NCBI GenBank assembly: GCA_025454695.1
Contig: JALONX010000002.1
Location: 1-38,632, forward strand
Origin: Chloroflexaceae bacterium
GTDB lineage: Bacteria; Chloroflexota; Chloroflexia; Chloroflexales; Chloroflexaceae
Direction of reading: 5' to 3'
DNA length: 38,632 nt
Positions 2,771-38,589 of the stretch are shown here, one piece after another. Numbering within the stretch: the first letter of the stretch is position 1; every line of letters begins with the position of its first letter. The translations under genes were made by a program, and so were the position numbers. The notes beneath the pieces were generated by a model that saw only the letters and a list, made by a program, of their open reading frames with translations, did not search any database and was not told where the DNA came from.

Positions 2771-5700
2771 CTAATCCGCTGCGCTTGTTTCGCCCACCGC
2801 CTGGGCCTCGGCAAGGCACGCGCCCAACTGCTCGGCCAGTGTTTGCACGAGGGGCGGGCGCACCATGCTATAGTGGTCGCCTGGCAGCACATGCAGCTCC
2901 ACGCCCTCGGCAGCGAGTCCTTCCCAGCCCAGGGTTGGGCCGCTCTCGTCCAGTGGGCGGTCGCCAGCGCGGAACAGTGTGACTCGGCCCTCGTAGCGAT
3001 GGGGACGGTAGGCCTGCATGGCTCGCAAATTTGCCACAAAGACGGCCAGGTACTGACCGATCTCGTGTTCGCCCAGGTCGGGGGGCAGTAGTTGGGCTGC
3101 CCGCGCCTGCCCCAGCACATAGCTCAGTTGCTGCTCGGGCGCGATCTGCTCCAGCATCTCCACCGTAATGCCCAGGTCGCTGCCAAAGGTGCGACTCAGG
3201 TCGCGGGCGAACCAGGCCAGCAGGGTGGTGTCGCTTACACTCGGCGGCGGTTCCGGCTCGGGTGCCCAGCTATCGAAGAGGGCCAGCAGGGCCACCTCCT
3301 CGCCCTGTGCCGTCAAACGGCGGGCCATTTCATAGGCCACCAGGCCCCCAAACGACCAGCCGCCCAGCATGTATGGCCCGTGGGGCTGCTGGTGCTGAAT
3401 TGCCGCCAGGTAGACCTCGGCCATCTCCTCGACGTGCGTGTGCGGTGCATGCTGCCCATCTAGCCCCAGGGCCTGTAGGCCGTAGAAGGGCTGCTCTGGC
3501 CCGAGGAGCCGCGCCAGGTCGAGATAGCTCAGCACGCTGCCCGCGCCGGGGTGAACGCAGAAGAAGGGCGGCCTGGTGCCTACGGGCTGAAGCGCCACCA
3601 GCGGGGTGTGATGCAGTGCCGTGCCCGCATGGCGCATGGTGCGGGCCAGATGAGCAATCGTCGGCTCCTGAAAGAGCGTCGCCAGGGGGATTTTCTGGCC
3701 AAGCTGCTGCTGAATCTGGGCCATCAGCCGCACCACCAGCAGCGAGTGCCCACCAAGGGCAAAAAAGCTATCGCCTACACCCACCGGCTGCACCCCCAGT
3801 AGCTCCTCCCAGATGCGGGCCAGGCGCAACTCCAGCATGTCGCGGGGCGCAACAAAACCATCGTGAACCGCACTGCGGGTTTCATCCGGCGCAGGCAGGG
3901 CCCGGCGGTCAATCTTGCCGCTCGGCGTGAGCGGCCAGCGTTCCAGCAGCACAAAGGCGCTGGGCAGCATGTAGTCGGGCAGTTTTTCCTTAAGGAAGGA
4001 ACCAAGAACCAAGAACCAAGAACCGTCAGTATTGGCCACTAGTGGTTCTTGGTTCTCGGTTCTCGGTTCTTGCAAGATGACGTAGGCTATCAGCCGCTTC
4101 GCCCCCCGTCCGTCGTCGCGGGCCACTACCACGCACTCGCGCACGGCGGCATGGCGGGCCAGCACGGCCTCCACTTCACCCAACTCGATGCGATAGCCCC
4201 GAATTTTTACCTGGTTGTCGGCCCGGCCCAGAAACTCAATCGTGCCATCAGAGCGGTAGCGGGCCAGGTCACCGGTTTTATAGACGACCGAGGACGGGAG
4301 ACCGGAGACGGGGGCCGCACCATCGAGGCCCAATCTGCTGGCTCCGGTCTCCCGTCCCTGGTCTCCGGTCGTAAGAAACCGCTCGGCGGTCAGATCGGGC
4401 CGGTGCAGGTAGCCACGGGCCAGGCTGTCGCCCGCAAAATAGAGATCAGCGGCGACGCCGATTGGCACCGGCTGCATGTGTGTGTCGAGCAGGAAGGCCT
4501 GGGTGTTGGCAATGGGCCTGCCAATCGGCGGCAGCGCGGGCCATGTCGTCGGGTCGGCATTCAGGGTGTGGGCGGTAACGACGTGAGTCTCCGATGGGCC
4601 GTAGTGGTTGTGCAGCTGAGGGTGAGGGCTGGCAGCGAACCACTGCACCAGGGCTGGTGTCGTTTGCAGCTGCTCGCCTGCCGTGATCACGTCGCGCAGG
4701 TAGGCCGGTGGCTGCCCGGCGACGGCAATCGCCTCGGCCAGCTGTTGCAGCGCCACAAAGGGCATAAACAGGCGCTCAATGCGCTGCTCGTCGAGAAAGC
4801 CCAGCAGCGCCTCCGGGTCGCGCCGCAGCGACTCGCTGGGCAGCACCAGGGTGCCGCCGCTGGCCCATGTGCTAAACAGCTCCTGAAACGAGACATCGAA
4901 GCTGGGCGACGAGAACTGCAAGGTGCGGGCTGCCCCCGGAATGACCTGCGCTTGCCAGGCCAGCAGGTTCACCAGCGGTCGGTGGGGCATGGCCACGCCC
5001 TTGGGCACGCCCGTCGAGCCAGAGGTGTAGATCACATAGGCCAGATTGTCCAGTTGCACCGCCACGTCGGGGTTGCTGTCAGGATAGGTGGCAAATGGCC
5101 TCCAATCGCTCAGCGAGACCGGCGACCATGAACCAGAGGCGGAAGCCAGCACGTCAAGCGTAGACGGTGTGGCCTCGGTCTCCCGTACCCCGTCCCCGGT
5201 CTCACGGGTTAGCACTACCGGCGACTGGGCATTTTCCAGCATGGCCCGCAGGCGCTCAGCAGGGTAGTTCGGGTCAAGCGGCACGTAGGCTCCGCCCGCC
5301 TTCAGAATGGCCAGAATGCCGATGGCCAGCTCAAGCGAGCGCTCCATGCAGATGCCCACCGGCACATCGGGGCCAACCCCCAGTGTGTGCAGGTGGTGGG
5401 CCAGCTGGTTGGCCCGTCCGTTCAGCTCAGCGTAGCTCAGCTGGGCCGCGCCGCACACCACGGCAACGGCGTCCGGTGTGAGCGCGGTCTGCCGTTCAAC
5501 CAGCTGGTGGGCAGCGAGCGGCGGGTAGCTGGCGGCGGTGGCGTTCCATTCCTGCAACTGCTGGCGGCGCTCAGCCTCACTCAGCAAAGGCAGGCTGGCG
5601 ATGGTCTGGGTTGGCTCGGCTACGATCCCTTCCAGCAGCGTCTGGAAATGGCTGACCATGCGGGCGATGGTGCTGGCATCGAACAGGTCGGTGTTGTATT

Positions 5701-8700
5701 CAATCTCGCCCAGCAGGCCGTTGGCTGTTTCCACAAACGAGAGCAGCAGATCGAACTTGGCCGTACCGCTCGACTCATCCAACGGACGCAGGGTGAGGCC
5801 GGAGAGTTCCAGGGCTTCGCTCGGCGCGTTTTGCAGCACCAGCATCACCTGAAACAGTGGGCTACGGCTTAAGTCTCGTTCCGGCTGAATCGCCTCCACC
5901 AGGTATTCAAAGGGCAGATCCTGATTGGCGAAAGCCCCCAGCGCCGCCTGGCGCACCCGGCTTAGCAGCTCGCTAAAACTGGGGTTGCCCGACAGATCGC
6001 CGCGTAGCACCAGGGTGTTGACGAAAAAGCCGATCAAGCCCTCGATCTCGCGGCGGGTGCGGTTGGCGATGGGTGAACCAACTAGAATATCCTCTTGCCC
6101 GCTGTAGCGGAACAGCAGCACCTGAAACGCCGCCAACAGCATCATAAACAGGGTCGCCCCTTCGCGCTGGCTCAGCGTTTGCAGGCCCTGGCTCAACTCT
6201 GGCGCGAGCGTGAAGGCCGTGGCAGCACCCCGGAAGGTCTGCACCGGTGGGCGGGGTCGGTCGGTGGGCAGTTCAAGGGCGGCAGGGGCAGCGGCCAGCT
6301 GGGTTTTCCAGTAGTCGAGCTGCTGCTGCAACAGCTGGCCCTGAAACCACGCCCGCTGCCAGACGGCAAAATCGGCATATTGAATGGTCAGTTCCGGCAG
6401 GCGCGCAGGCCGCCGCTGGACGTGCGCCATGTAAAAGGCGGCCAACTCGCGAATGAGCACGCCCATTGACCAGCCATCGGAGATGATATGGTGCAGCGTA
6501 AAGAGCAGCAGGTATTCATCCTCGTCCAGGATAGCCAGAGTCGCCCGCACCAGCGGCCCGCGTTCCAGGTCAAAGGGCTGCTGGGCCTCAGCCACTGCTA
6601 GCTCACGGGCCGCAGCATCACGGCGAGGGGCTGGCACGTCGCACAAGTCAACAATGCGTAAGGGCAGCACAGTAGCAGGAGCAATCAGCTGCACCGGCTG
6701 GCCGTCCACGCTAGCAAAGCTGGTGCGCAGCGACTCGTGCCGGGCCACCAGGGCGTTGACACTCTGCTGGAGGGCCGCCAGGTCGAGCGTGCCATGCATG
6801 CGCACCCCGGTGGGGATGTTGTAGAGCGGGCTGCCCGGCTCCAGTTGGTCGAGGAACCAGAGCCGTTGTTGCGCAAACGAGAGCGGCAAGGGCTGGCCTG
6901 GTTCGCGGGGCAGGGCTTGAATCTGGCCCAGTGCCCCCTGGCTGCCCGGCGCTGAGTCTGTGCCGTCAGCTCCCTGCAGGCCAAGGCGGGCCAGCCCGGC
7001 CCCGTGGCGCTTGCTCAGGTAGCTCGCCAGTTCGGCGATGGTGGGCGCTTCAAACAGGGCCACCACCGAGACATACTCGCCCAGTTGCTCTTGCAGGCCG
7101 TTGATAAACACCGCGCCTTGAATGGAGTTGCCACCCAGCTGGAAAAAGCTGTCGTGGATGCTGACCTGCTCAAGCCGGAAATGGGCCGCCCACATGTCGG
7201 CTAGCAGCTGCTCGACCTCGTTGCGGGGCGCAACAAACGGACGGCTGGCGGTGGCGTTGCTCTGCTCAGGCCGGGGCAGTGCCCGCCGATCCAGCTTGCC
7301 GTTGGGCGACAGCGGCAGAACCTCCAGTTCCACAATCGCCGTGGGCACCATGTAGTCGGGCAGGCGCTCGCGCAGACGCGATTGGAGATTGGAGATTAGA
7401 GATTGGATGTCATCAGTAGAGGAAGTACTTCTACCATCCTCTGCGGCCCTGCGGCTCTGCGGCTCTGTGTTTTGCAAAACAACGTAGGCCACCAGTCGCT
7501 GCTCGCCCGGTGAGTCTTCGCGCACCACGGCGGCGGCTTCGCGCACGGCGGGGTGGTCGGTCAGTGTGGCCTCGATTTCGCCCAGCTCAATGCGGAAGCC
7601 CCGCAGCTTCACCTGGTGATCAATTCGCCCCAGGTAATCCACCGTGCCGTCGGGCCGCCAGCGGGCCAGGTCGCCCGTCTTATAGATTTTGGATTTTGGA
7701 TTTTGGATTTTAGATTGGTCTGCATCTCCTCCAAAATCCAAAATTGCAAATCCAAAATCGAGGAAGCGTTCGGCAGTGAGTGCCGCGTCGTTGAGGTAGC
7801 CCACGCCCACGCCCGCGCCGCCAATCCACAACTCGCCCGGCACGCCCACCGGCACCGGCTGCATGCCAGCGTCGAGGATGTGCATCTGGGTGTTGGGAAT
7901 GGGGCCACCAATCGGCGGGTTCGCGCTGGTCGGGAAATCTAGTGGCACCCGGTAGGCCGCCACAATGTCGGTGCATTCGGTTGGGCCGTAGGTGTTCACC
8001 AGGGCGGTTGCGTCACCGGCAAGCTCGCGCCAGCGCCGCAGGCGGGCCAGGCCAATCGGCTCGCCGCCCAGAAACACACAGCGCAGCGGCATGGGCTGCT
8101 TGCGCTCCACCGATGCCTCGGCAATCGGGTAAAACGCACTCGGTGTGCAGTTAATCAGCGTAATCTGCTCACGCTGGATAGTGTGCAACAGGCCTAGCGG
8201 ATCATAGTGTTCCTCGGCAGGCAAACAGAGCTGGCCGCCCGTCATTAGCGGGGCGTAGATGTTTTTCTGGGTCAGGTCGAAACTGACCGAGGAGACCAGC
8301 AGCACATGGTCGTCGGCGTTGATGTTGAACTCGCTGATAAACCAGTGCATCAGGTTGGCGAAGCCCCGGTGGGTGACCCCGGCAGCTTTGGGCCGTCCGG
8401 TTGAGCCGGAGGTGAAGATGACATACATCAGCTGGTCAAGGCTGTCCACCTCGGGCAGGTCGCTGGCGGGGGTCTGGGCAATAGCAGGCCAATCACTATC
8501 CAGGCAAAACACCTGGCTGGCGCTGCTGGCGAAGCGGCTGCTCAGCGCCTGGCTGGTGAGCAGGAGCGCTGCGCCGGAGTCTTGCAGCATCAGCGCCAGG
8601 CGCTCCTGGGGGTAGGCCGGGTCGAGCGGCACATAGGCCCCACCGGCCTTCAGAATGCCTAGCAAGCCCACAACGAGGTCGAGCGAACGGGGCAGGCTGA

Positions 8701-11700
8701 TGCCCACCCGCGTGTTTGGCCCGATACCCAGCCCGCGCAGGTGGTGGGCCAACTGGTTGGAACGTTGGTTTAAGGCGGCAAACGAGAGCGTGTCCAGCGG
8801 CGCAGACCCAGCCGCCTGGGCCACCCAGCGCCCGCTGGCGGCAGTCGCCGTGGGGGTGCGGGCGGCCTGGCGGGTAAAGGCATGGGCAACGGATTGGGGC
8901 GCGGGGTTGGGCTGTGCCGTGTCGTTCCACGCCGTCAGCAGCTGCTGTTCGGCGGGCGTGAGCAGCGGCAGCTGGGCAATGGCCGTGGTGGGGCTGGCCA
9001 CCGCGCCTTCCAGCAGCAGCAAAAAGTGCTGCAACATGCGCTCAACCGTCGCCCGATCAAACAGATCGGTGTTAAAGTCAATCGTGCCAGTGAGCTGTTT
9101 ACCAAGCGGGGTAATCGTCAGGGTCAGGTCGGTTTTGGCGGTGTCGGTTTCCTGGTCAACCAGCTTAAGCTGGGCCTCAGGCAGCTCCACCGCTTGCAGC
9201 GGCGTGTTCTGCATCACAAACATCACCTGAAACAGTGGGTTGTGGCTCATCTGGCGCGTGGACTGGATGGCGTCTACCAGCAGCTCAAACGGCAGGTCTT
9301 GATGGTCGTAGGCCCCCAGCGTCACATGGCGCAGCCGCTGCACCAGCTCGCGGAAGCTAGGGTTGCCCGACAGATCGCCCCGCAGCACCAGCGTGTTGAT
9401 AAAACAGCCGATCAGCGGCTCAACTTCGCTGCGGTTGCGGTTGGCGATGGGCGTGCCAACGGCAATATCATCCTGCCCACTGTAACGGGCCAGCAACACC
9501 TGAAACGCCGCCAGCAAGGTCATAAAAGGAGTCACCTGCTCACGCTGGCTCAGCGCCATCACCCCATCGGTTAGCTTCTGCGGCAGCGTAAAGGCGATCA
9601 GCGTGCCGTTAAAGGTCTGCATGGGGGGCCGGGGGCGGTCGGTCGGTAGATTAAGGATCGGCACCAACCCACGGGGGCTTTCGCTGCCAAGCTGCCGCTT
9701 CCAGTAGTTCAGCTGCCGTTCCAGCACCGCGCCCTGCAGCCAGTTGCGCTGCCAGACGGCAAAGTCGGCATACTGAATCGGCAATTCCGGCAGCGGCGAG
9801 GCCTCGCCGCGCACAAAGGCGCTATACAAACGCCCCAATTCATTCAAAACCACGCCGATTGACCAGCCATCGGACACAATATGGTGCATGGTGAAGAGAA
9901 TGATGGAAGCGGTGTCCTCCAGTTGGAGCAGTTTCACCCGCAGCAGCGGGCCACGGGCCAGGTCGAACGGCGCACGAGCCTCTGCACTAGCGAGGGCATG
10001 CGCTTCGGCTTCGCGTTCCTCAGCAGGGAGATGTCGCAAATCAATGCAGGGCAGCCGCACCGGGGCAGCGGGTGCGATCACCTGGGCGGGCCGCCCCTGG
10101 TGGAGGGTGAAACTGGTACGCAGCGCCTCGTGTCGCTCCACAATCGTGTTCAGGCTGCGCTCAAAGGCCGCTACATCGAGTTTGCCGGTGATGCGCAGGG
10201 CCGCTGGCATGCTGTAGAGCGGGCTGCCCGGCTCCAACTGGTCGAGGAACCAGAGCCGTTCCTGGCTGAACGAGAGTGGCTGTGGCCCCTCCCGCGTCGC
10301 TGCCGCGTGCAGCGGCGGAGCCACGTCGGGGGCTTTGTCGGCGGCCTGCCGTTGCAGCCCCTCGATCTGGGTGGCCATGCCTGCCACCGTTGGCGCAGCG
10401 AACATGTCGCGCAGCGGCAGGTGTACATGCAGCTCTTTGCGCACCCGCGAAATCACCTGGGTGGCCAGCAGCGAATGGCCGCCCAGGTCGAAGAAGCTGT
10501 CGTGAATGCCCACCTGGTCGCGCCCCAGCACGCTGCCCCAGAGGTTAGCCAGCACGGTTTCGGTGGCTGTGCGCGGGGCTACGTAGGTTCGCGCTAGCTC
10601 AGGATGAGTCGCGTCGGGGGCAGGCAGCGCCTTACGGTCTACCTTGCCGTTGGGGCTAAGCGGTAGCTCGGCCAGCAGCACAAAGGCCGACGGCACCATG
10701 TAGTCGGGCAATTTTTCGCGGAGGAAAGAACCGAGAACCGAGAACCAAGAACCATCCTGAACCGAAGCTGGTTCTTGGTTCTTGGTTCTTGGTTCTTGCA
10801 AAACAACATACGCCACCAGCCGTTTGTCGCCGGGCTGGTCTTCGCGGGCCACCACCACCGCGTCGCGCACGGCAGGGTGGTGCAGCAAGGTCGCTTCGAT
10901 TTCGCCCAGCTCAATGCGAAAGCCCCGTACTTTTACCTGGTGATCGAGCCGCCCCAGGTACTCAAGCTGGCCATCGGGCCGGTAGCGTACCAGGTCGCCG
11001 GTTTTATAGACGGGAGACGGGAGACCGATGACCGGGGCCAGCATATCTCGCCCAGATGGTTCGGCTCCGGTCTGCGGTCGTCGGTCTCCGGTCACGATAA
11101 AGCGTTCCGCCGTCAACTCGGGCCGGTTGAAGTAGCCCCGCGCCAGCCCATCGCCGCCCAGGTAGAGTTCGCCGGGCACGCCGATGGGCACCCGCTGCAT
11201 GTGTTTGTCCAGCACATAGGCCTGGGTATTGGGCAGTGGCACGCCAATCGGTACACTGGTTGCGTCGGGCGGAATAAGCGCCACGGTGGAGTAGGTGGTG
11301 TCTTCGCTGGGGCCGTAGAGGTTGTAGACCGCCTGCACGTTGCCCGTGGCGTAGAGCTGTTGAACCAGCGGCAACGGCAACGGCTCGCCTGCCAGATTGA
11401 CGGTATGCACCGAGGGCGGCAGGCCGCTGCTGCGCAACAGGGCCGCCACTGCCGACGGCACACTATTCACCAGCGTGACCTCGCCAGCGGCGGGCAGGTC
11501 GGATAGGGCCAGGGCGTTTTCCGCCAGAATGACGCTGCCGCCCATGCTCAGCGGCCCAAACATTTCAAAGATCGAGAGATCAAAACAGATCGAGGTGCTG
11601 AACAGCACGCCCGCAAATTGTTCCGGGGTATAGGCAGTGTGTGCCCAGGCCAGAAAGGCCAGCACGCTGTGGTGGGTAATGGCCACGCCTTTGGGCCGCC

Positions 11701-17190: not shown

Positions 17191-17247
17191 GTGTTTCCCT
17201 CGTTCTGTTCAACAGGGTTCGGCCCACCCCTGGGTCGGCCCCCGGTT

Positions 17248-20709: not shown

Positions 20710-20730
20710 ACGTTATCTACACACCTTTCC

Positions 20731-22761: not shown

Positions 22762-22765
22762 GTCA

Positions 22766-22771
22766 CCCTCC
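22766..22771 (-). promoter_or_regulatory. Strong ribosome binding site setting the A-PCP start
   Basis: GGAGGG on the minus strand, 4 bases before ATG 22761; it decides against the longer open frame that begins at 22920 inside the upstream gene. Confidence 0.7.
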
Positions 22772-22792
22772 GTGGTAGCGCTAGCCCTGCCC

Positions 22793-24937
22793 TCAGGCAA
22801 GGCCGCGCTCCTGGCGTTTCTGTTCCAGCAACTGGCGCTTCTCCTCCGGCGAGGCGCTGCGCAGCCGGTTGAGGGCGCGGGCGATCTTCTCGGTCTGGCC
22901 GGGGCGGGGTTCGCTGGCAATAATCAGTTCGGCCATCGCGGCGACCGTGGTGGCCTCAAACAAACGGCGCATGGGCAGATCCACCCGGAATAACTCGCGC
23001 ACGCGGGAAAGCAGGCGGGCCGCGCTTAACGAATGGCCGCCTAGCTCAAAAAAATCATCATGCACACCGATGCGCTCCTGGCCTAGAATGGTCGTCCAGA
23101 TCAGGGCGATCTCTTCTTCCACTGGCGTGCGGGGCGCAACAAAGGGCCGCGCTTCCCGGCGCTGAGTCTGCGTTTCGCCCGCCGCCGTCAAAATATCCAT
23201 GGTGCCATCGGCTCGGTAGCGGGCGCGGCGGTCGGTTTTGTAGAGCCGCGCCTCGGGCGCAGGGCTGAAAGGATGGGCAACGGCGCGGGCCGGGTCTCGT
23301 TCCAATCCAACAGGCGCGGCGGCCTCCAGGCCCGTGTCGCTGATGTAAAGGTCGCCGGGCACGCCAATCGGCGCCAGCTGCATGTGGGCATCCAGCAGGT
23401 AGATCTGGGCTTCCTCGCTCCAGGCCAGCAGTTGGTGCGCTTCACCCGCTGGCAGCATGGGCAACGCGGTAATTGGCTGGCCAGCGCTGGTGGGCAGGCT
23501 TTCCAGCAAGGTCTGGTAGTGGGCCAGCATGCGCTCAACCGTTGCCGCATCAAACAGGTCGGTGTTGTAGAGCATTGTTGCCACCAACCCGGCTTCGTTT
23601 TCGCGCACCGAAAGTGAAAGGTCAAAGCGGGCTGTGCCCAGGTCAACATTCAGCGCCTGCATGGTCGTGTCGCCCTGCTTCATCGCCGGGCGGGGGGCGT
23701 TTTGCAGCGCAAACATCACCTGAAACAGCGGGCTGCGGCTGCTGTTCTGGCTGGGCTGAAACTCCTCCACCAGCCGTTCAAAGGGCAGCTCCTGATGGTC
23801 GTAGGCTCGCAGCGTCGTCGCCCGCACCCGACGGAGCAGCTCGCGGAAGCTGGGCGCGCCGCTCAGATCGCCATGCAGCACCAGCATGTTGTTGAAAAAA
23901 CCAATCATGCCTTCCAGTTCGTCCTGGTTGCGGTTGGCAATGGGCGACCCGACCAGAATGCTGGGCTGGCTGCTGTAGCGGTGCAGCAGCGTTTGAAACG
24001 CCGCCAGCAGCGTCATAAACAGGGTTGCGCCTTCCTGCTTGCTCAGGGCCTGGAGTGCTGTGGCCAGCTGGCGACTGAGGTGCAGGTGCTGCTTGGCCCC
24101 GTTGGCGGTGAAGCTGGGCACCGTGGGGCGGGGGCGGTCGGTGGGCAGGTTGAGGGCGACGACCTTGCCGCCAAGCTCGTTTTTCCAGTAGGCCAGTTGC
24201 CGTTCCAGCAGTTCGCCCTGCAAGCGCTGGCGCTGCCAGGCCGCATAGTCGCCATACTGAATGGGCAACTCGGGCAGGGGCGAGGGTTTCCCGGCGCTAA
24301 ACGCGCCGTAGAGGGCGATAATCTCTCGCAGAATGACCCCCATTGACCAGCCATCGAAGATGATGTGATGCAGCGTCAGTGCCAGCATGTGGCGCTGCTC
24401 ATCCAATCGCAGCAGCAGCCCCCGTAGGAGCGGCCCCGCGGCCAGGTCAAAGGGGCGCTGCCCTTCGGCGATGATGCGCCGCAAGGCCTCGGCTTCGCGC
24501 TCGTCGGTGGGGCATTCGATCACATCCTGGCGGGCCAGTGTCAGCCGCAGCTCCGGTGCAACGATTTGCACCGGGCTGTCGTTGACGCTGCGAAAGGTGG
24601 TGCGCAGCAGCTCGTGGCGGCGCACAATCTCGTTCAGGCTCCGTTCTAGCACGGCGATGTTGAGCGGGCCGTCGAGCTTCATCACCAGCGGCATGTTGTA
24701 AAAGGCGCTGCCGGGCTGGAACTGATCGAGCAGCCAGAGCCGCTGCTGCCCAAACGAAAGCGGGGCTGGGTCGCTGCCCGTGCGCCGTGGGATACTGCGC
24801 TCGTCCGGCGGCGGGGCTTCGGTTGTGTCCACCACATGTGAACTGGCTTCTTGCGCCGCCCGCTTTTTCAGCAGCAGTTCCAGCAGTTTGCGCTGGTCGG
24901 GCGAAAGCGTGTCGAGTTGAGTCTGAATATCGCTCAT
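22793..24937 (-). CDS. NRPS protein C-(adenylation remnant)-PCP
   Basis: 714 residues. N-terminal helical linker (LSPDQRKLLELLLKKR), complete C domain (about 57-490, HHIIFDGWS near 190, later ELPFERLVEEF), then only about 100 residues where an A domain of over 500 is expected, then an intact PCP (FELGGHSLS, Ser near 636) and a basic tail (SPEEKRQLLEQKR). The remnant keeps the segment around IYLLDAHMQ and PIGVPGDLYI and a damaged A7 region (YKTDRRARYRADG); motifs A1-A5 and A8-A10 are gone. The frame stays open, so the protein is made as C-PCP. The PCP must be loaded in trans or skipped. The start ATG overlaps the acylase stop (ATGA), which implies translational coupling. Confidence 0.93.
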   Translation of the reverse strand: MSDIQTQLDTLSPDQRKLLELLLKKRAAQEASSHVVDTTEAPPPDERSIPRRTGSDPAPLSFGQQRLWLLDQFQPGSAFYNMPLVMKLDGPLNIAVLERSLNEIVRRHELLRTTFRSVNDSPVQIVAPELRLTLARQDVIECPTDEREAEALRRIIAEGQRPFDLAAGPLLRGLLLRLDEQRHMLALTLHHIIFDGWSMGVILREIIALYGAFSAGKPSPLPELPIQYGDYAAWQRQRLQGELLERQLAYWKNELGGKVVALNLPTDRPRPTVPSFTANGAKQHLHLSRQLATALQALSKQEGATLFMTLLAAFQTLLHRYSSQPSILVGSPIANRNQDELEGMIGFFNNMLVLHGDLSGAPSFRELLRRVRATTLRAYDHQELPFERLVEEFQPSQNSSRSPLFQVMFALQNAPRPAMKQGDTTMQALNVDLGTARFDLSLSVRENEAGLVATMLYNTDLFDAATVERMLAHYQTLLESLPTSAGQPITALPMLPAGEAHQLLAWSEEAQIYLLDAHMQLAPIGVPGDLYISDTGLEAAAPVGLERDPARAVAHPFSPAPEARLYKTDRRARYRADGTMDILTAAGETQTQRREARPFVAPRTPVEEEIALIWTTILGQERIGVHDDFFELGGHSLSAARLLSRVRELFRVDLPMRRLFEATTVAAMAELIIASEPRPGQTEKIARALNRLRSASPEEKRQLLEQKRQERGLA
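23120..23425 (-). pseudogene. Residual fragment of a deleted adenylation domain, inside the C-PCP protein
   Basis: The fragment between LLAWSEEA and RPFVAPRTPVEEE holds A-domain pieces from after A5 (AQIYLLDAHMQ, PIGVPGDLYI) and around A7 (LYKTDRRARY, where sister domains have YKTGDLARY). The nucleotide-binding P-loop, the substrate pocket and the catalytic A10 lysine are missing, so it cannot adenylate. Two separate in-frame deletions best explain the pattern. No clear copy of the A7-A8 repeat remains. Confidence 0.8.
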
Positions 24938-27348: not shown

Positions 27349-27399
27349 TCGCTCCTCCCCTTATGCGTTAGGTCACGTACACCATGTTGCTCGTGTTAC

Positions 27400-30300
27400 T
27401 TACTCGTCTTCACCCTCACCATCCTCACGTTGGCGCAGCCCCTGCCGAGCGCGGCGCTTTTCGCGGCGGCGCTCGCCCCGACTACGGCCCACGTCCTGTT
27501 CGGGCTGCTGGGCCTCGTCCTGTTCCAGCAGCTTCGCTAGCGCACTCACCGTCGGCCCTTCATACAGGCTCACAGTAGGAATGGGCTTGTTGAAGCGCTC
27601 TTTCAGTCGCCCGATCAGGGTAATGCCACTGAGCGAGTTTCCGCCCAGATCAAAGAAGTTGTCGTGAATGCCCACCTGCTGCACGCCCAGCGTCGCCTGC
27701 CAGAGTTCGGCAATGCTGCGCTCGGTCTCGTTGCGCGGCGCGATGTAGGGGTTGGGCAGGTTCGGGCGCGGGTGGAGCGTGGTCGCCTCCGTTGGTGTTG
27801 CGGCAGCCCCTTCGTGCAGCCCGGCGAGCTGCACCCAGCGCTGCATACGCCCATGCAGGTCGCCGGTCGAAACCACCACCTGCGGCAGCGGCCCGGCGGC
27901 CAGCATGCGCTCAAAGGCGTCGCTTCCTTCCGCCGCCGTCATTGCAAAGGCCGACGACTGCTCCTGGCTGGTCAGTTGCTGGCGCTGCTCATCGGTTACT
28001 TCCCATGCATCCCAGTTGACACTGAGCCAGGGCACCGGGCTATGGCGGTTGTGCTGCTGCGCAATCGCATCCATACAGCTGTTGGCAGCGGCATAGGCCC
28101 CAAAGCCTAGCCCACCAAGCACTGCCGCCAGCGACGAGGCGAGCATGGTGAAGTCCAGCGGGCGGTCAGCCAGGGCCTGCTCCAGGGCCAGCGTGCCATA
28201 GACTTTGGTTTGAAAATGCTGCTCGCAGGCGGCATAGTCGGCCTCTTGCAACACGCCGAAGAACTGCTTGCGTACCAGCCCCGCCGCGTGAATCACGCCG
28301 TGCAGTGCGCCAAACTGTGCCTCAAGCTGCACCAGCGCCGCCCGCAGTTGCTCGGGCCGGGTCACGTCCGCCGTGAGCGGCAGCACCGTGGCCCCCAACT
28401 CCTCCAGCTCACGCACTGCGCGAATGCGGCGGCTGGTTTCGTCGTTGTGAGACGCCAGCCACTCGTCCCAGTGCTGGCGGGGCGGCAAGTCGGTGCGGGC
28501 CAGCAGGGCCAGTTTTGCCTGGGCAGATTGGGCCAGGTGGCGGGCCAGGGCCAGGCCCAGCCCCCCAAAACCACCGGTAATCAGGTAGACGCCGCCGGGG
28601 CGCAGTCGGCTTTCGCCACGCTCCAGGCGCACCGGCTCAAAAGCCTGCTCCCAGCGCCGCCCGTCACGGTAGGCCAGCACCCCGCCCGCTGTCGGCGCAA
28701 GGCACTCGGCCAGCAGCTGATCAGCGAGTTGCGGGCCGTGCCAGTCGCCCGGCGGCGGCAGGCTCACATCCACACTCTGGCAGCTGATGTGCGGATATTC
28801 CTGGGGAATAACTTTGCACAGCCCCAGCAGGGTGGCTTTTTCCGGGCTAAAATTCGTTTCACCCGCCACGTGTTGCATGTTGCTGGAAAGCATGAGCAGA
28901 TGGACGGGCGGGGCGCTGGCCTGGTTGCCCAGGGCTTGCGTGAGCGCCAGCAGGCTGTAGAAGCCGCGCTCCTGGGCTGCCGCAAAGCTCGCCGCCGTGA
29001 GGGTGGCCTGTGTCGGCGGGGTCACGCTCCAGGCATGCACAATGCCGTCGGGCTGCCAGCCGTGCGCGTGCAGGTCGGCCAGCAGCGCCTCGTAGTCGGC
29101 CCGTTCCCCTGGGTTCAGCGTGTAGAGTTGCTGGTCGAGCCGGGCGAAGACCTGGCCCGGCTGCACCACCACCACGTCGCGCTTGTGCTGGTGCAGCCGC
29201 TGCACCAGCCCGCTACTCAGGCTACTTGCATCGGCAAAAACCAGCCAGCGTGCTGGCCCACCATCGGCCCCATGTGGCGGTAGGGCGGGCTTCCAGAAGG
29301 GCAGGCTGAACCAGTCGGCAATCTCACTCCGTTTCTGCAACGGCTGGGTAGCAGCGGACTCATAGGCCAGTTTGAGCGGTTCGAGCCAGTAGCGCTGGCG
29401 CTCAAAGGGGTAGGTCGGCAGGGCCACCCGCCGCCGCTGTTCGCCCGCGTAGAGCCGTTCCCCTTCTACCTCCACGCCAGCCAGCCAGAGCTTGCCCAGC
29501 GTGCCCAGCAGAAACGCCCGGTCGGGCTGCTTATCGTTGGGGTGGCGCAGCGAATGTAAGATCGTCTGGCTGGCGACGCGGGCGGGGTGCTGGCGGGCCA
29601 GCGTGGCGAGCGTCTGGCCGGGGCCAACTTCCAGCAGCACGGTGTTGGGGTCGCGCAGTAGTTCTTGTAAGCCATCAGCAAATCGCACCGCCTGGCGCAG
29701 GTGGCTGGCCCAGTAGCCGGGGTCGGTGGCCTGCTCCGCCGTGATCCATGTACCAGTCACATTCGAGATAAATGGCCGTTCTGGGGCCTGCAGCGCTATC
29801 TGGCCCACCAGCGCCGTAAACGGCTCCAGGATCGGATCCATCATCGCCGAATGGAAGGCGTGGGAGGTGTGCAGGCGGCGGCAGTTGAGGCCATGGGCGC
29901 TGAGTTGCCGTTCTAGTTGCTCCACCGCTTCCACCGGGCCAGAGACCACACATAGCCCCGGCCCATTAACCGCGGCCAGCGACAGCTCGGAATCGAGCAG
30001 CATGGTGACTTCGGCTTCGGCCAGCGGCACGGCCAGCATTGCGCCGGGCGGCAGTTGCCCCATCAGCCGCCCACGAGCCGCCACCAGCGCCAGGCCATCT
30101 TCCAGGCGAAACACGCCCGCCAGACATGCGGCCACATACTCGCCGATGCTATGGCCAATCATCGCCCACGGCTCCAGCCCACGGCTCAGCCAGAGCTGGG
30201 CCAGCGCATATTCCAGCGCGAAGAGGGCCGGTTGGGTGTATTGGGTCTGATCGACAAGAGAACCCAGAACCGAGAACCGAGAACCGGTACCATTGGCCGA

Positions 30301-32085
30301 ATCAGTTGGTTCTTGGTTCTGGGTTCTCGGTTCTTGCAGTATGATCTGGCGAATGTCCCGCCCCAGGTGCGGTTGCAGCAGCTCGGCGCAGCGGTCAAGG
30401 GTGTCGCGAAACACCGGCTCATCGCGGTAGAGGCCCGCAGCCATGCCCGCGTATTGGGCACCCTGGCCAGAAAACAGAAACACCAGCGGGCGCTCGCCCG
30501 GTTCCTGGTAACCCGACAGGAGTCGCTCCGGGTCGAAGCTTTCCAGGGCGTGCAGGGCATCGTCGCGGTCGCGGCCCACCAGGGTGCGGCGGTGGCTAAA
30601 GGCCCGTCGCCCTACATGCAGTGTGTATGCCACATCGGCCAGGTTCAGCTCGGGGTGCTCGCGCAGGTAGGCCGCCAGGTTGGCACACTGCCAGTCCAGG
30701 GCGGTGCCGGTTTTGGCCGAAAAGGTGAGCAACTGCCAGGGGCGGGGCGGGTCGCTGGGCGGCAGCGGCGGCGCTTCTTCCAGCACGGCATGCACATTGG
30801 TGCCGCCCATGCCAAAGGAGCTGACGCCCGCCCGGCGGGGATGGCCGTTTCGGAACCATTCTGCCAGCGTTGTGTTAACATAAAATGGGCTATTCGCAAA
30901 ATCAATCTGCGGGTTGGGCGCGGTGTAGTGCAAGCTAGGCGGAATGCGGCGGTGGGTCAGGGCCAGCGCGGTTTTGATCACGCCCGCTACGCCCGCCGCC
31001 GTGTCCAGGTGGCCAATATTGGTTTTAAGCGAACCAAGGGCGCAGTAGCCCCGTTTGTCGGTGCCCGCCCGAAAGGCCTGGGTCAGGGCGGCGATCTCAA
31101 TCGGGTCGCCCAGGCTGGTGCCGGTGCCGTGGGCTTCTACATAGCTGATGCTTGCGGGGTCAACCCCCGCCACGGCCTGGGCCATGGCGATCACGGCGGC
31201 CTGGCCATCCACGCTGGGTGCCATGTAACTCACCTTCACCGCACCGTCGTTGTCAATGGCTGAGCCACGAATCACGGCGTAGATCGTGTCGCCATCTTCG
31301 AGCGCGTTTTCCAGCCGTTTCAGCACCACCACACCCGCGCCGTGGCCGTTCACAAAACCTTTTGCATGCACGTCAAAGGCCCGGCAATGGCCATCGGGCG
31401 AGGTCGCGCCGCCCTCCTGGTAGAGGTAGCCCGCCTTTTCAGGGAAGTGAATGGAAACGCCTCCGGCCAGTGCCATGTCAGCCTCGTAGTTCAGCAGGCT
31501 CTGGCAGGCCACATGGATGGCGGCCAGCGAGGTGGACGAGGCCGTCTGCACCGTAATACTCGGCCCGGTGAGGTTGAGTTTGTAGGCTACCTCACTGGTC
31601 AGGCTGTCTTTGTCGTTGCCAATCGAGGCCTGCAAACTATCTACCGAGGCGACCATGCGCATGTGGGAAAAAACATTGTGGAGCAGGTAGGTGTTGAGGC
31701 TGGAGCCGCCAAACACGCCGATGCGCCCGCTGTAGCGCTCCGAGTCGTAGCCCGCGTGTTCCAGGGCCGTCCAGGCGCATTCCAAAAACAGGCGATGCTG
31801 GGGATCCATCAGCTCGGCCACATGGGGGCTATGTCCAAAAAAGGCCGCGTCGAAATAGTCGGCATCGCCCAGTGCGCCCCTGGCCCGCACATAGTTGGGC
31901 AGCTTCAGCAGTTCCGGCTCAATCCCCTCTGCCAGCAGTTCTTCATCCGAGAAGAACGAGATTGACTCAACGCCAGCGCACAGGTTCTGCCACAACTCAT
32001 CTACCGAGTGTGCCCCAGGAAAGCGGCCCGCCATGCCAATAATGGCGATGCCATCCAGTGCTGCGTCCGTTTCGGTTTCACTCAT
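27400..32085 (-). CDS. Type I PKS module KS-AT-KR-ACP with Ser in place of the KS cysteine
   Basis: 1561 residues. KS (about 8-430) has the His motifs EAHGTGT and KTNIGHL, but the nucleophile motif reads TASSTSL (Ser183) where TACSTSL is expected. AT (about 530-860) has GHSIGEY and HAFHS, the malonyl-CoA signature. KR (about 1090-1380) has the NADPH loop GGFGGLG and S-Y-N residues in the SSLAAVLGGLGFGAYAAAN region (quoted in part); LDD of B-type KRs is absent. ACP near 1484 (LGGNSLSG) and a highly charged tail (RGERRREKRRARQ) complete it. There is no DH or ER, so a beta-hydroxy product is expected if extension occurs. AGAGGAG precedes ATG 32085, 26 bp after the FAAL-NRPS stop. A palindromic repeat interrupts the AT in-frame (30259-30335). 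Confidence 0.95.
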   Translation of the reverse strand: MSETETDAALDGIAIIGMAGRFPGAHSVDELWQNLCAGVESISFFSDEELLAEGIEPELLKLPNYVRARGALGDADYFDAAFFGHSPHVAELMDPQHRLFLECAWTALEHAGYDSERYSGRIGVFGGSSLNTYLLHNVFSHMRMVASVDSLQASIGNDKDSLTSEVAYKLNLTGPSITVQTASSTSLAAIHVACQSLLNYEADMALAGGVSIHFPEKAGYLYQEGGATSPDGHCRAFDVHAKGFVNGHGAGVVVLKRLENALEDGDTIYAVIRGSAIDNDGAVKVSYMAPSVDGQAAVIAMAQAVAGVDPASISYVEAHGTGTSLGDPIEIAALTQAFRAGTDKRGYCALGSLKTNIGHLDTAAGVAGVIKTALALTHRRIPPSLHYTAPNPQIDFANSPFYVNTTLAEWFRNGHPRRAGVSSFGMGGTNVHAVLEEAPPLPPSDPPRPWQLLTFSAKTGTALDWQCANLAAYLREHPELNLADVAYTLHVGRRAFSHRRTLVGRDRDDALHALESFDPERLLSGYQEPGERPLVFLFSGQGAQYAGMAAGLYRDEPVFRDTLDRCAELLQPHLGRDIRQIILQEPRTQNQEPTDSANGTGSRFSVLGSLVDQTQYTQPALFALEYALAQLWLSRGLEPWAMIGHSIGEYVAACLAGVFRLEDGLALVAARGRLMGQLPPGAMLAVPLAEAEVTMLLDSELSLAAVNGPGLCVVSGPVEAVEQLERQLSAHGLNCRRLHTSHAFHSAMMDPILEPFTALVGQIALQAPERPFISNVTGTWITAEQATDPGYWASHLRQAVRFADGLQELLRDPNTVLLEVGPGQTLATLARQHPARVASQTILHSLRHPNDKQPDRAFLLGTLGKLWLAGVEVEGERLYAGEQRRRVALPTYPFERQRYWLEPLKLAYESAATQPLQKRSEIADWFSLPFWKPALPPHGADGGPARWLVFADASSLSSGLVQRLHQHKRDVVVVQPGQVFARLDQQLYTLNPGERADYEALLADLHAHGWQPDGIVHAWSVTPPTQATLTAASFAAAQERGFYSLLALTQALGNQASAPPVHLLMLSSNMQHVAGETNFSPEKATLLGLCKVIPQEYPHISCQSVDVSLPPPGDWHGPQLADQLLAECLAPTAGGVLAYRDGRRWEQAFEPVRLERGESRLRPGGVYLITGGFGGLGLALARHLAQSAQAKLALLARTDLPPRQHWDEWLASHNDETSRRIRAVRELEELGATVLPLTADVTRPEQLRAALVQLEAQFGALHGVIHAAGLVRKQFFGVLQEADYAACEQHFQTKVYGTLALEQALADRPLDFTMLASSLAAVLGGLGFGAYAAANSCMDAIAQQHNRHSPVPWLSVNWDAWEVTDEQRQQLTSQEQSSAFAMTAAEGSDAFERMLAAGPLPQVVVSTGDLHGRMQRWVQLAGLHEGAAATPTEATTLHPRPNLPNPYIAPRNETERSIAELWQATLGVQQVGIHDNFFDLGGNSLSGITLIGRLKERFNKPIPTVSLYEGPTVSALAKLLEQDEAQQPEQDVGRSRGERRREKRRARQGLRQREDGEGEDE
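30259..30335. repeat. In-frame GGTTCT palindromic element, copy 4 (inside the PKS acyltransferase)
   Basis: 27-base left arm (30259-30285), 22-base spacer, 28-base right arm (30308-30335), the same architecture as the three NRPS copies. Read as LQEPRTQNQEP...SRFSVLGSL between GRDIRQII and DQTQYTQPALFALE, a variable linker before the AT core. Confidence 0.9.
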
Positions 32086-32111
32086 GCCGCTTGCTCCTCT
32101 GTCAGTATGCG

Positions 32112-35100
32112 CTATGAGCCAGCCCGGTTGCGGGCCAACTCCTTACGCCGGTCGCGAAAGGCTTTCTGCTTCTGTGCCCGGTCTTGAAATTCGGCAAACG
32201 ATGGCTCGGCGGGAAGCCCCTGGCCCAGATGCGCCGCCAGCGTGCCCACGGTGGGGTGGCGGAACATGTCAATCAGCGTCAGCTGCGGGTAGCTGGCCCG
32301 TAGCTCGCTATGCACCTGCACCAGCAGCAGCGAATGGCCGCCAAGCTCGAAGAAGTTATCGTGGATGCCCACATGTTCCACCTTCAGCGCTGCCTGCCAG
32401 ACCGCCGCAATCTGGTGTTCAAGCTCGCTGCGGGGGGCCAGAAAGGCGGCGCTGCGTTCCAGGTGTGCGTCACTCGGTGCAGGCAGCCGCCGCACATCCA
32501 CCTTGCCGTTGGGCGTCAGCGGCATCCTCTCCAGCAGCACAATCGCCGCAGGCACCATGTAGGCGGGCAGGCGCTCGCGCAGATGCGATTGGAGATTGGA
32601 AATTGGAGATTGACCATTAGTCATTAACGATTGACCCTTCGACAAGCCCTTCGATAAACTCAGGGGGGGCCTCAGGGCAGGCGGATTGACGATTGACGAT
32701 TGGGTGTCAGCAATAGCAGATGCCTGTTCCAAGCCATCCTCTGCGTCTCTGCGTCTCTGCGTCTCTGCGTTTTGCAAGACCACATATGCCACCAGGCGCT
32801 TATTGCCGGGGGTGTCTTCGCGGGCGGTGACAAAGGCTTCATGCACGGCGGGGTGCTGGCTTAGCACGGTTTCGATTTCGCCCAGCTCGATGCGGAAGCC
32901 CCGCAGCTTCACCTGGTGGTCGCTGCGCCCCACATATTCAATCAGCCCATCGGGCAGCCAGCGGGCGCGGTCGCCAGTTTTGTAGACCGGGGACGGAAGA
33001 CCGACGACCGACGCCAACCGATCTTGTTCAGATGGTGTGACTTCCGTCTCCCGTCTCCGGTCTCCGGTCACCAGAAAGCGTTGGGCGGTGAGGGCCGGGT
33101 CGGCGAAGTAGCCACGGGCCAGGCCCATGCCGCCCACATACAGCTCACCAGGGACGCCGATGGGCACCGGGTGCATGCGCTCATCGAGAATGTAGACCTG
33201 GGTGTTGAGCAGCGGGCGACCAATGGGGATGTAGCTGCTGGTGGGCGGGCGCTGCGGGTTCACATGGTAGAAGGTCGAGCAGACGGTGGTTTCGGTCAGC
33301 CCGTAACCATTGGAGATAGTGGTGGTTTGCACCAGGCGGTTGATGTCGCTGTACGCCAGGGCTTCGCCGCCGCTGAGGAGCAGCCGCAGTTCGGGCAACT
33401 GGTCGGCCCGTCCGTTTAAGCGGGCAATCAGCGAAGGCACGGCGCTGAGCATGGTCACATGGCGCTGGCGCATCAGGGCAAACAGGGCCTCGAAGTCCAG
33501 CACCTCCAGGGCATTGGGCAGCACCAGCGCACCACCGGTGCAAAGCGGCGGGAAAATTTCGCCCACAAAACTGGCCGAGGCCAGCGAGGTCAGCGGCAAC
33601 ATGCGGTCGCTGCTGCCTGGCTCGTAGGAACGCACAAACGACTCAATCAGATTGACGATGCCATGGTGGGTCAGCACCACGCCTTTGGGCTGCCCGGTGG
33701 AGCCGCTGGTGTAGATTACACATGCGGCATTATCGGGCGTTGGTTCAGCCACAGGCGGCAGTGAGTCTAATTCGGTAGCACTGGCGAGTGATTGCAGGCT
33801 ACAGATTACACCGTGCCAATCTGCAATCTGCAATCTGCCTTCTGCAATCTCCTGGTCGGCCAGCAGCACCGGCGCACCAGTCTGGTGCAGAATAAAGCTC
33901 AGCCGCTCGGCGGGGTAGGTTGGGTCAAGCGGCACATAGGCTCCCCCGGCCTTGAGAATGGCCAGAATGCCCACCATCATTTCCACCGAACGCTCGGCGC
34001 AGATGCCTACCAGCGTTTCTGGCCCTACCCCCAGACCCCGCAGCCGCCGGGCCAGGCTGTTGGCGCGCTCGTCTAGTTCGCCGTAGCGCATCTGGTCAGC
34101 GCCACTGATCACCGCCACGGCGTCCGGTGACCGTTGGGCCTGGGCCGCAAACAGTTGGTGGATGCACAGGGCGGGGATGGGCGTGGTGTCGCCGCTACTC
34201 CATTCAAGCAGCAGTTGCTGGCGCTCGGCCTGGCTGAGCAACGGCAGATCATCAACAAGTTGCTGCGGGTCGGCCACCACCGCCGCCAGAATTGTTTCCA
34301 GGTGCTGGGCCATGCGGCGGGCTGTGGCTCCATCAAACAGATCACTGTTGTATTCCAACGTCGCCACCATGCCGCCATGCACCTCGCCCATCGCCAGCGA
34401 CAGGTCGAACTGGGCCATTGTCTGCGGCAGCGCAAAGGGCGCAAACTGTAGCTCGCCCACCTGAATCTGGCTCGCTTCGGCCCCAACCGCAAAAGCGGTC
34501 AGGTCGGTCTGCTCGCGAGCGTGGGCTTTTTGCAGCGCAAACATCACCTGAAACAGCGGCGAACGACTCAGGTCGCGCTGAAGGCCCATCCGTTCAACCA
34601 GGCTCACAAAGGGGTAGTCGCCGTGGGCAAAGGCGGCCAGGCTGGTCTGGCGCACCCGCCCCAGCAGGTCGCTAAAGCGCGGCTCACCGGCCATGTCGGC
34701 CCGCAGCACCACGGAGTTGACGAAGTAGCCAACCAGGCCGCTCAACTCGGCCCGGCTGCGCCCGGCGGTGGGCGTGCCAATCAGAAAATCGGCCTGGCCG
34801 CTGTAGCGGTAGAGCAGCACCTCAAACGCGGCCAGCAGCACATGGTAGAGCGTGGCGTGCTGGGCCTCGGCCAGCGCCTTGAGTCCAGCTGTTACCGTAG
34901 CAGAAAGGCTAAATTGGTAGGCCGCGCCGTTATAGGTTTGCAACGGCGGGCGCGGGCGATCCGGGGGCAGGTTCAGGGTCGTCGCCGCCCCGTCCAGCTG
35001 CCCCCGCCAGAACTGCCACAGCCGTTCGCCTTCGCTTCCGGCCAGCAACTCGTGCTGCCAGCGCACATAATCGCCAAAATCCAGCGGCAGTGGCGCAAGC

Positions 35101-37658: not shown

Positions 37659-38589
37659 ATGTTCCCCGTGTTTTTATCACCACATAGGCCGGGAGATCAG
37701 GAAGAGTCGCCAGGTCGTGTTCCAGGGTGATCAGCGTACCGTCGCGGTTCACCTCGCGGAAGCCGCCAAACTTATAGGTGACGTACATCATGCGGTTGCG
37801 CTCGGTGGAAACGAATTCGGCCTGAAGCCGCACCCCCGCTGCCTGGGCCTGCCGCATAATGTGGCCCATCATCAGCGTGCCAACCCCACGCGACATCACC
37901 CGGCACGACATGAGCAGCAGCTTGATCGTCCAGACTTCCGGGCTGCACGCTAGCAGGGCCAGGCCAATGGTGCCGTAGCTGCCATACTTATCATCCAGCG
38001 CCGCCACCAGCAGTTTGTGGTTGGCTGAACGCCGAAACGAATCTAGCTCGTCGTAGGAATAGGTGTAGCCGGTGGAGTTGAGCTGGTGGGTGCGCATGGT
38101 CAACTCTTCGGCCCGCTGGAGGTCGTCCTCCTCGGCTTCGGCCAGGGTGAAGACCATGCCCAGGGTGGCCAGAAACTCCTCATTCGAGCCAACGAACTGC
38201 TGCTCGGCTTCGTTGCGGGCAATGTCGCTCTGGTAGAGCATGCGCCGCTGCCGCGACTCGGCGGTGATGAAGCGGGGCTGCATGCGCGGCAGCGTTGGCA
38301 TGGTGGCCACCTCGCTGGCGTCAATCGTCAGCACCTGGGGCAGCACAAAGCGCACTTCCTCGCGCTCAAAAGGCTGGTCATCCACAAAGGCGAAGCTGTC
38401 TAGCCCCAGGTTCAGCGCGGCGGCAATCTGCTGGATCGAGTCGGCCTTGGAGTTCCAGTTGATCTGCGGGTAGAGAAAGTAGTCGCTCAGGCCAAGCTCA
38501 GCCAGCTTGTGCATGGCGGCGCTGTGGTCGTTGCGGCTGGCGATGGACTGCAAGATGCCCCGGCTGTCCAGTGTCTCGTTCTCGGATAA
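37642..38589 (-). CDS. FkbH-like protein, 5'-truncated
   Basis: The frame is open from 38589 with no ATG; TTG 38553 is the first plausible start (303 residues). It matches FkbH-type proteins from RGILQSIASRNDH through YFLYPQINWNSKADSI and DSFAFVDDQPFEREEV, then the GNAT-like C-terminal half (MRTHQLNSTG, KLLLMSCRVMSRGVGTLMM). FkbH proteins load glyceryl groups from 1,3-bisphosphoglycerate onto carrier proteins for polyketide starters or methoxymalonyl units. The N-terminal HAD segment with the nucleophile aspartates (DLDNTLW type) is missing: homology ends near 38577 and an in-frame stop lies at 38592-38590 in abruptly AT-rich sequence. It is therefore either a broken gene or an assembly or contig-edge effect. 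It is the first gene of the operon, overlapping the FAAL gene by 17 bases. Confidence 0.85.
   Translation of the reverse strand, partial: LSENETLDSRGILQSIASRNDHSAAMHKLAELGLSDYFLYPQINWNSKADSIQQIAAALNLGLDSFAFVDDQPFEREEVRFVLPQVLTIDASEVATMPTLPRMQPRFITAESRQRRMLYQSDIARNEAEQQFVGSNEEFLATLGMVFTLAEAEEDDLQRAEELTMRTHQLNSTGYTYSYDELDSFRRSANHKLLVAALDDKYGSYGTIGLALLACSPEVWTIKLLLMSCRVMSRGVGTLMMGHIMRQAQAAGVRLQAEFVSTERNRMMYVTYKFGGFREVNRDGTLITLEHDLATLPDLPAYVVIKTRGTYAASV

Follow-up and report, generated by a model that had tools for sequence, protein, structure and literature searches.

What fills the loop in front of the A7 motif of an adenylation (A) domain, and how did it come to be there? This question is raised by a 38,632-nt stretch of the genome of a Chloroflexaceae bacterium (GenBank assembly GCA_025454695.1, contig JALONX010000002.1, positions 1 to 38,632; the whole stretch is referred to here as the window), whose minus strand is occupied by a cluster of nonribosomal peptide synthetase (NRPS) and polyketide synthase (PKS) genes. 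In the window, each of the seven complete NRPS A domains has heptanucleotide repeats (heptads) inserted in frame between ERF/QRF and the A7 motif YKTGD, which lies at 4282, 7684, 11008, 14481, 18018, 21480, and 32984, in each case on the minus strand. The heptad-built stretch measures 26-31 residues at each of the seven sites and is of the TTTTGGA type at four and of the GGAGACC (= GGTCTCC) type at three. A reading of this DNA from its sequence alone had proposed a repeat-encoded, palindromic loop at these positions, and folding agrees with it. Inverted arms were listed by a repeat finder at four of the seven sites (4286, 7685, 18020, and 21482); the sites at 11009, 14482, and 32985 fall below its thresholds, with arms visible by eye and in folding. 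Compared with dinucleotide shuffles, all seven inserts folded as RNA with z-scores of -2.8 to -7.4, the weakest hairpin being the one at 14482, which 3 of 200 shuffles matched. The window contains 19 period-7 runs, compared to 0-2 at each of the periods 4, 5, 6, 8, 9, 10, 11, and 13 (period 14, a multiple of 7, gave 14). An eighth AMP-binding domain, which is fatty acyl-AMP ligase (FAAL)-like and belongs to the open reading frame (ORF) at 32112-37658, is without a heptad loop.

The inserts appear to occupy a disordered part of the fold. When the A domain of ORF 20731-22920 was modeled with AlphaFold2 from a 39-sequence alignment, the model reached a mean predicted local distance difference test score (pLDDT) of 88.9, and its structural matches include the NRPS A domains McyA2 (8jbr) and PheA (1amu). 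The insert spans model residues 368-395 and includes 18 of the 21 residues with pLDDT <50 (373-380 and 382-391), as well as the only segments of at least 3 residues below that value in the modeled domain. As the natural loop has been replaced, no clean target-site duplication of the MITE kind is readable at A7 by eye.

Distribution of the pre-A7 loop

The window sits on contig C929 of a draft genome of 6.71 Mb in 936 contigs (88.5% complete). A protein search of this genome returned 19 matches, of which 11 were counted as NRPS A domains and eight were dropped as acyl-CoA or acetyl-CoA synthetase-like; the latter are all without a pre-A7 heptad loop. Ten of the 11 NRPS A domains have a heptad loop, and the two families noticed in the window became four in the genome: TTTTGGA (five loops), GGAGACC (three), GATTGAC (one, on C71), and GATTGCC (one, on C289). 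The C71 domain (L175, 11773-12150) presumably precedes a methyltransferase-like insertion (VVEVGTGKD). The remaining NRPS A domain, on C628, has an ordinary loop. Within the same order, 80 genomes including our own were searched, 32 had matches, and one A-domain locus was taken from each of 29 others. None of these 29 relatives has a period-7 run in the pre-A7 loop (28 by script and L191, whose motif has V for T, by reading), and the loop measures 10-26 residues in the 28 that were measured. The contrast of 10/11 with 0/29 bears out the earlier suggestion of an insertion hot spot at this loop. One of the relatives (G053; L188, 1892-1946) has a GAACTTG heptad array in the C-terminal (A_C) subdomain (ETWNLELGTWNSEL), while its pre-A7 loop is heptad-free. 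A search pattern for heptads at A7, covering TTTTGGA-like heptads only, matched 1 of 400 genomes of the phylum, namely that of the window. The heptad motif TTTTGGATTTTGGA is itself patchy, as it was found in 16 of the 80 genomes including our own, two genera of the family accounting for the majority of matches; the count of 73+76 in G037 is not specific, because the reversed control there gave 28+40.

Similar arrangements were also found outside the phylum. Our scan of named genomes, which selects TTTTGGA-like arrays, yielded 58 stretches with the heptad-at-A7 pattern; by reading, all except L042, L044, and L085 are NRPS A domains and nearly all are cyanobacterial. Many of the cyanobacterial arrays are short (NSKFKIQNSKL) and without a second arm, both arms being present in L035, L047, L056, L059, and L084. 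Among 37 further A domains in the same stretches, the period-7 score was ≥8 in nine and ≥11 in seven, with control periods giving 0 (periods 5 and 6), 6 (period 8), and 1 (period 9). Other heptads are in use in these further domains, such as CCCCAGT (PNPQSPVPSPQSPVPN). The pattern occurred in two of 100 genomes sampled from one cyanobacterial order, and of 30 best-match loops from that order one scored ≥8 and none ≥11; it should be noted that this sample favors ordinary loops, because the loops are best matches to an ordinary-loop query. Thus, a minority of genomes from a second phylum have put the pre-A7 site to the same use.

These distributions bear directly on whether the heptad loop could simply be an ancestral part of NRPS A domains, for which the sequence-only reading had named the same loop and peptide across many phyla as the sign to look for. 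Peptides such as SKIQNPK and SKFKIQN do precede A7 in many named cyanobacterial contigs, so that part of the expectation was borne out, whereas the patchiness of the pattern (1/400 and 2/100 genomes) was not what it foresaw. The loop is heptad-free in 29/29 relatives, below threshold in 29/30 cyanobacterial-order loops, and only 10 residues long in the first A domain of LgrA. In addition, ORF 22793-24937 on the minus strand of the window retains an A-domain remnant of ~100 residues between its condensation (C) and thiolation (T) domains, with YKTD instead of YKTGD and an ordinary pre-A7 loop (HPFSPAPEARLYKTD); judging from this arrangement, the module seems to have largely lost its A domain. 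From the heptad-free relatives, the genome samples, and the ordinary loop of the remnant, we reject an ancestral origin and assign it a negligible probability.

Heptads across the genome and in other genes

Heptads are not confined to the cluster. The motif TTTTGGATTTTGGA has 57+68 = 125 overlapping matches in the genome, compared to 0 for the reversed control. For a wider view, we sampled 80 contigs (some masked), amounting to 562 kb free of N in 74 pieces, and found 328 period-7 runs free of N with 73 unit types (all-N artefact excluded). Before removal of all-N artefacts, of which period 7 had 11, the counts were 339 at period 7 versus 8 after shuffling, 234 at period 14, again a multiple of 7, and 11-70 at every remaining period between 4 and 15. 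A complementary partner within 90 nt was present for 93/328 runs versus 7/328 with random flanks, the other 235 being without one. According to a home-made gene caller (coding fraction 0.757), 257 of the 328 runs are intergenic, 45 lie at gene edges, and 26 lie in genes. This search, which the sequence-only reading had recommended, leaves the pre-A7 loop a hot spot within a mainly intergenic repeat population. Runs with a complementary partner showed no clear difference between genes (12/26) and intergenic DNA (71/257; p 0.07). An assembly artefact seems unlikely, because heptad elements of this kind turn up on many contigs and in further genomes.

The supposed focus on one loop of one enzyme family was not upheld. 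Heptads also occur at other A-domain sites, in a PKS acyltransferase (AT) domain, and in an acyl-CoA ligase-like gene (C405), which has heptads in its C-terminal domain and a second heptad stretch upstream. Beyond these enzymes, in-gene runs interrupt PheT, TruB, an NAD synthase with a carbon-nitrogen hydrolase domain, and a CobN/Mg-chelatase protein, with further runs in an FtsX permease, a major facilitator superfamily permease, and glycosyltransferases. We compared PheT and TruB with 29 other orthologous loci each, of which the search pattern resolved 15 and 13, respectively. The PheT stretch from TLDG to AGVMGG has 46 residues with heptads here and 26 (14 orthologues) or 23 (one orthologue) elsewhere, while the TruB stretch has 38 residues here and 15-19 (12 orthologues) or 33 (one orthologue) elsewhere. 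No period-7 score >5 was found among the resolved orthologues of either protein. The single 33-residue TruB loop (G007, L327) is without a period-7 signal and is possibly a decayed insert at the same site.

A selected function would be another reason for so many inserts: the insert could serve as a linker in the protein or, as a hairpin in the mRNA, set the pace of translation close to the A-domain hinge. The 12 window elements that were folded as RNA form hairpins within coding sequence with z-scores of -2.8 to -10.2, and 10/11 NRPS A domains of the genome carry the insert (L178, on C289, without a second arm), as such a function would predict. However, the same site holds different peptides and different heptads, the C628 domain of the same genome and 29 relatives do without the insert, and most sampled copies are intergenic. 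We therefore regard a selected function as improbable.

Origin and movement of the inserts

The own A-domain cores share 35-51% protein identity, and the closest pair (51%) bears different heptad families. In a comparison of loops with their flanks, which left out L179 and used L178 with a short left part, the 13 same-family loop pairs had a DNA identity of 67-86% (mean 78%), compared to 57% for their left flanks (360 nt), 67% for their right flanks (228 nt), and 43% for the 32 different-family loop pairs. Since loop identity exceeds that of the flanks and heptad family does not track A-domain similarity, the loops probably arrived or were copied after the domains had diverged. The heptads themselves account for part of this identity, so it is the spacers that count. 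GGAGACC spacers match at 19/27 positions between the loops at 11008 and 32984, and the element at another A-domain site (5111..5203) has a spacer that resembles those of these two of the three pre-A7 GGAGACC elements, with 18/27 and 17/27 matches; less than 1e-4 of sampled positions do as well as 17-19/27. Copying between sites after domain divergence is the simplest reading of these data, although the mechanism of such copying is our inference.

Since 3 does not divide 7, a pure heptad array encodes one and the same cyclic heptapeptide whichever frame of a strand is read; TTTTGGA repeats encode FWILDFG, shifted in register, in every frame of one strand and SKIQNPK on the complementary strand. 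The same holds for all unit lengths that 3 does not divide, including that of the octamers also present here. TTTTGGA, GGAGACC, and GAACCNA have no cyclic stop on either strand and are thus open in all six frames, so neither phase nor orientation limits their entry into a gene, provided that the total length keeps the frame. We consider it probable that dispersed heptad elements have spread in this genome in a near-neutral manner, much as palindromic elements have in Rickettsia, and that frame and fold have filtered the outcome. In such an element, a 7-mer present in a few copies is followed by a short spacer and the complementary 7-mers, often as a hairpin; these elements would insert throughout the genome and be kept in genes where fold and frame allow. 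That the pre-A7 loop is a hot spot would follow from its nature as a disordered surface loop of variable length. A heptad element may first have replaced the natural loop of one A domain. Short-tract copying, by gene conversion or heptad-anchored template switching, might then have spread it to further A domains in the same genome, with unrelated heptads taking over the site in still others.

Several observations weigh against this account of near-neutral spread and copying. The GGAGACC spacer of the loop at 4282 matches the others at only 11-13/27 positions, and among the three TTTTGGA spacers, which match at 12, 11, and 7 of 16 positions, the 7/16 pair is weak. Only nine of the ten heptad loops are palindromic, the loop on C289 (L178) having one array and no second arm, and natural loops reach 26 residues, so length alone is no mark of an insert. 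The inserts in PheT and TruB have arms of different, only partly complementary heptads, with hairpin z-scores of 0.2 and -0.7, which is no improvement on shuffled sequence. Units open on both strands are indeed enriched in genes (20/26 versus 113/257 intergenic; p 0.0016), but this excess is partly forced, because a stop would end the gene call. Lastly, the spacers of GAACC palindromes across the genome look unrelated by eye, so transposition of whole units is unsupported, and the inverted arms could also come from slippage with hairpin-templated repair. A single transposon with a conserved spacer was considered and rejected, as spacers differ by eye among the GAACC copies and among the TTTTGGA palindromes outside of NRPS genes.

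Slippage and hairpin-templated repair could in principle account for everything, if chance heptads in a tolerant loop expanded and turned palindromic by strand switching, with no movement between loci. The all-different GAACC spacers fit this proposal, as do the 73 unit types of the genome sample, which are expected if units drift and re-homogenize locally. It does not account for the same heptads with related spacers in A domains as divergent as those of this genome, nor for the recurrence of the GGAGACC spacer at a different A-domain site, because local slippage gives no shared spacers. We hold slippage alone to be unlikely.

The sequence-only reading had further suggested that the repeat might be a homology patch, i.e., a recombination joint for the exchange of A cores or subdomains. 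The loop is located between the substrate-binding core and A_sub, and core exchange is described as common in NRPS evolution (PMC8097286). Furthermore, the nearest neighbor of the part left of the loop belongs to the own genome in 1/9 domains, compared to 7/9 for the part right of it (3/10 and 8/10 in a smaller set), i.e., the C-terminal part is more often nearest to its own paralogues. This difference does not arise at the loop, however. In 60-residue windows, own-genome neighbors were 3/9 just left of the loop, 4/9 just right of it, and 6/9 only far to the right, and a 60-residue sliding window over the nine own domains found no recombination break point at the loop. The flanks of same-family pairs are also no more similar than those of different-family pairs, and cyanobacterial heptad domains have no left-right difference (6/29 each; 2/24 and 3/24 for other cyanobacterial domains). 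Consequently, the patch proposal lost its support, and we judge it to be highly improbable.

Positions of all features discussed here are collected in Table 1. Besides the pre-A7 loop, heptad-type elements fill the A_C subdomain (after VVLQ), a loop upstream of YIYTSGSTG, and the PKS AT domain. Fifteen inserts were listed for the window, 14 of them 69-108 bp long and one 189 bp; the latter, the composite at 32586-32774, is in frame, and the Pfam family AMP-binding_C matches there with positions 1-39 of 76 only. The cluster additionally includes a penicillin-amidase family gene (24934-27348, minus strand), which we assume may strip an acyl group from the prepeptide, as in other lipopeptide pathways. 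Close to the window end, ORF 37642-38553 (minus strand) has no Pfam match; we take its residues DDQPFEREEV to suggest an FkbH-like protein.

Table 1. Heptad inserts and cluster genes of the window (KS, ketosynthase; KR, ketoreductase; ACP, acyl carrier protein).
Feature	Position	Strand	Evidence
Pre-A7 insert, GGAGACC-type heptad palindrome (LTTGDQGRETGASRLGLDGAAPVSGLPSSVV)	4283..4375	-	hairpin z -4.3
Pre-A7 insert, TTTTGGA-type palindrome (LDFGFAILDFGGDADQSKIQNPKSKI)	7685..7762	-	hairpin z -5.7
Pre-A7 insert, GGAGACC type	11009..11098	-	hairpin z -3.7
Pre-A7 insert, TTTTGGA type, one arm partly decayed	14482..14565	-	hairpin z -2.8
Pre-A7 insert, TTTTGGA type	18019..18096	-	hairpin z -5.6
Pre-A7 insert, TTTTGGA type	21481..21564	-	hairpin z -7.4; structure model
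Pre-A7 insert, GGAGACC type	32985..33074	-	hairpin z -3.5
A_C-subdomain insert, GAACCNA-type palindrome (QEPRTENQEP...GSWFLVLGSF)	3995..4072	-	hairpin z -10.2
A_C-subdomain insert, GAACCNA-type palindrome	10724..10798	-	hairpin z -7.5
A_C-subdomain insert, GAACCNA-type palindrome	17731..17808	-	hairpin z -7.3
A_C-subdomain composite, CCGCAGAG octamer-like stretch (by eye) and GATTGGA heptads	7367..7474	-	
A_C-subdomain composite, ACGCAGAG octamers, GATTGAC and GATTGGA heptads, CGAAGGG-containing repeat	32586..32774	-	
Third A-domain site (upstream of YIYTSGSTG), GGAGACC-type element	5111..5203	-	hairpin z -3.9
Third A-domain site in ORF 32112-37658, GCAGATT heptads	33786..33854	-	period-7 runs
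Insert in PKS acyltransferase domain, GAACCNA-type palindrome	30259..30336	-	hairpin z -6.1
NRPS, three C-A-T modules and thioesterase	2771..13858	-	ORF and domain matches
NRPS, C-A-T	13789..17190	-	ORF and domain matches
NRPS, C-A-T	17248..20709	-	ORF and domain matches
NRPS, A-T	20731..22920	-	ORF and domain matches
NRPS, C / A-domain remnant with ordinary loop (by eye) / T	22793..24937	-	domain matches
PKS, KS-AT-KR-ACP	27400..32085	-	domain matches
FAAL-like AMP-binding, ACP, C-A-T	32112..37658	-	domain matches

Comparison with known repeat systems

Heptanucleotide repeats of the tandem kind go by the name STRR, and the small dispersed repeats of Nostoc punctiforme were reportedly described by Elhai et al. 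in 2008 as very small mobile repeats, often embedded in heptameric repeats. Among the papers listed in our literature searches, none describes, judging by title or abstract opening, heptads inserted into NRPS or other proteins. Both in-frame palindromes and heptad repeats have been described before (see below); their combination as a recurrent replacement of one protein loop appeared in none of the passages cited there, and the pattern is real and unusual.

Rickettsia palindromic elements were the model named by the sequence-only reading, and the likeness in concept is supported. They are described as 105-146 bp long and as occurring both between genes and in frame in genes of conserved proteins, with one host enzyme (Gmk) reported to be translated and active (PMC2229807). 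The palindromic repeats studied here likewise occur between genes and in frame in conserved genes. Unlike the Rickettsia elements as described there, they have a 7-mer unit, many different heptads, unrelated-looking GAACC spacers, and one domain-family loop that was hit repeatedly, and they show no wholly conserved element of 105-146 bp, the inserts being built from 7-mer units and mostly 69-108 bp long. REPINs and REP elements, which are associated with RAYT transposases, are similar in being short paired inverted repeats dispersed in a genome, but REPs are described as extragenic and not as 7-mer arrays (PMC3116915).

The heptanucleotide repeats of cyanobacteria, Xanthomonas, and Beggiatoaceae are described as direct tandem 7-mers linked to regulation and located mostly outside of ORFs (PMC4692102, PMC4679880); one of these sources translates TAACTGA repeats and proposes that repeats of this kind may be tolerated between parts of modular proteins (PMC4679880). 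Our repeats resemble them as tandem 7-mers that are mostly intergenic and patchy across phyla, and 7-mers here lie far above other unit lengths and are under-represented in genes. They differ in the inverted partners, which accompany 93/328 runs (control 7), and in the in-frame heptad palindromes of NRPS, PKS, and housekeeping loops, which are absent from the heptanucleotide-repeat passages of both sources.

The locus offers a checkable case of repeat DNA becoming protein at a fixed structural site. Ten loops with four heptad families in one genome, together with the reuse of the site in a second phylum, are natural replicates for which the heptad-free sites of relatives serve as controls, so that the movement of heptad repeats and the reason for their abundance in some bacteria can be put to the test. 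The inserts also mark, for the purposes of NRPS engineering, loops that seemingly accept 25-60 residues of unrelated sequence.

A further parallel is the P6b stem-loop of the cyanobacterial tRNA-Leu(UAA) intron, a heptad hairpin of class TDNGATT or NNTGAGT in which Class II has repeatedly been replaced by Class I (PMC4476775). By inspection against the classes given there, TTTTGGA, when read as TTGGATT, fits TDNGATT, while GGAGACC and GAACCNA fit neither class. It is possible, if somewhat doubtful, that in two or more phyla a general process swaps unrelated heptad hairpins at fixed, permissive sites such as the pre-A7 loop, as in the Class I/II exchange, and that heptads in particular, like all units of a length that 3 does not divide, would be blind to frame and well placed to invade genes. 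In both systems, a fixed site is filled by unrelated heptad hairpins; in the intron the site is an RNA stem (PMC4476775), whereas here it is a protein loop, occupied by four heptad families in one genome.

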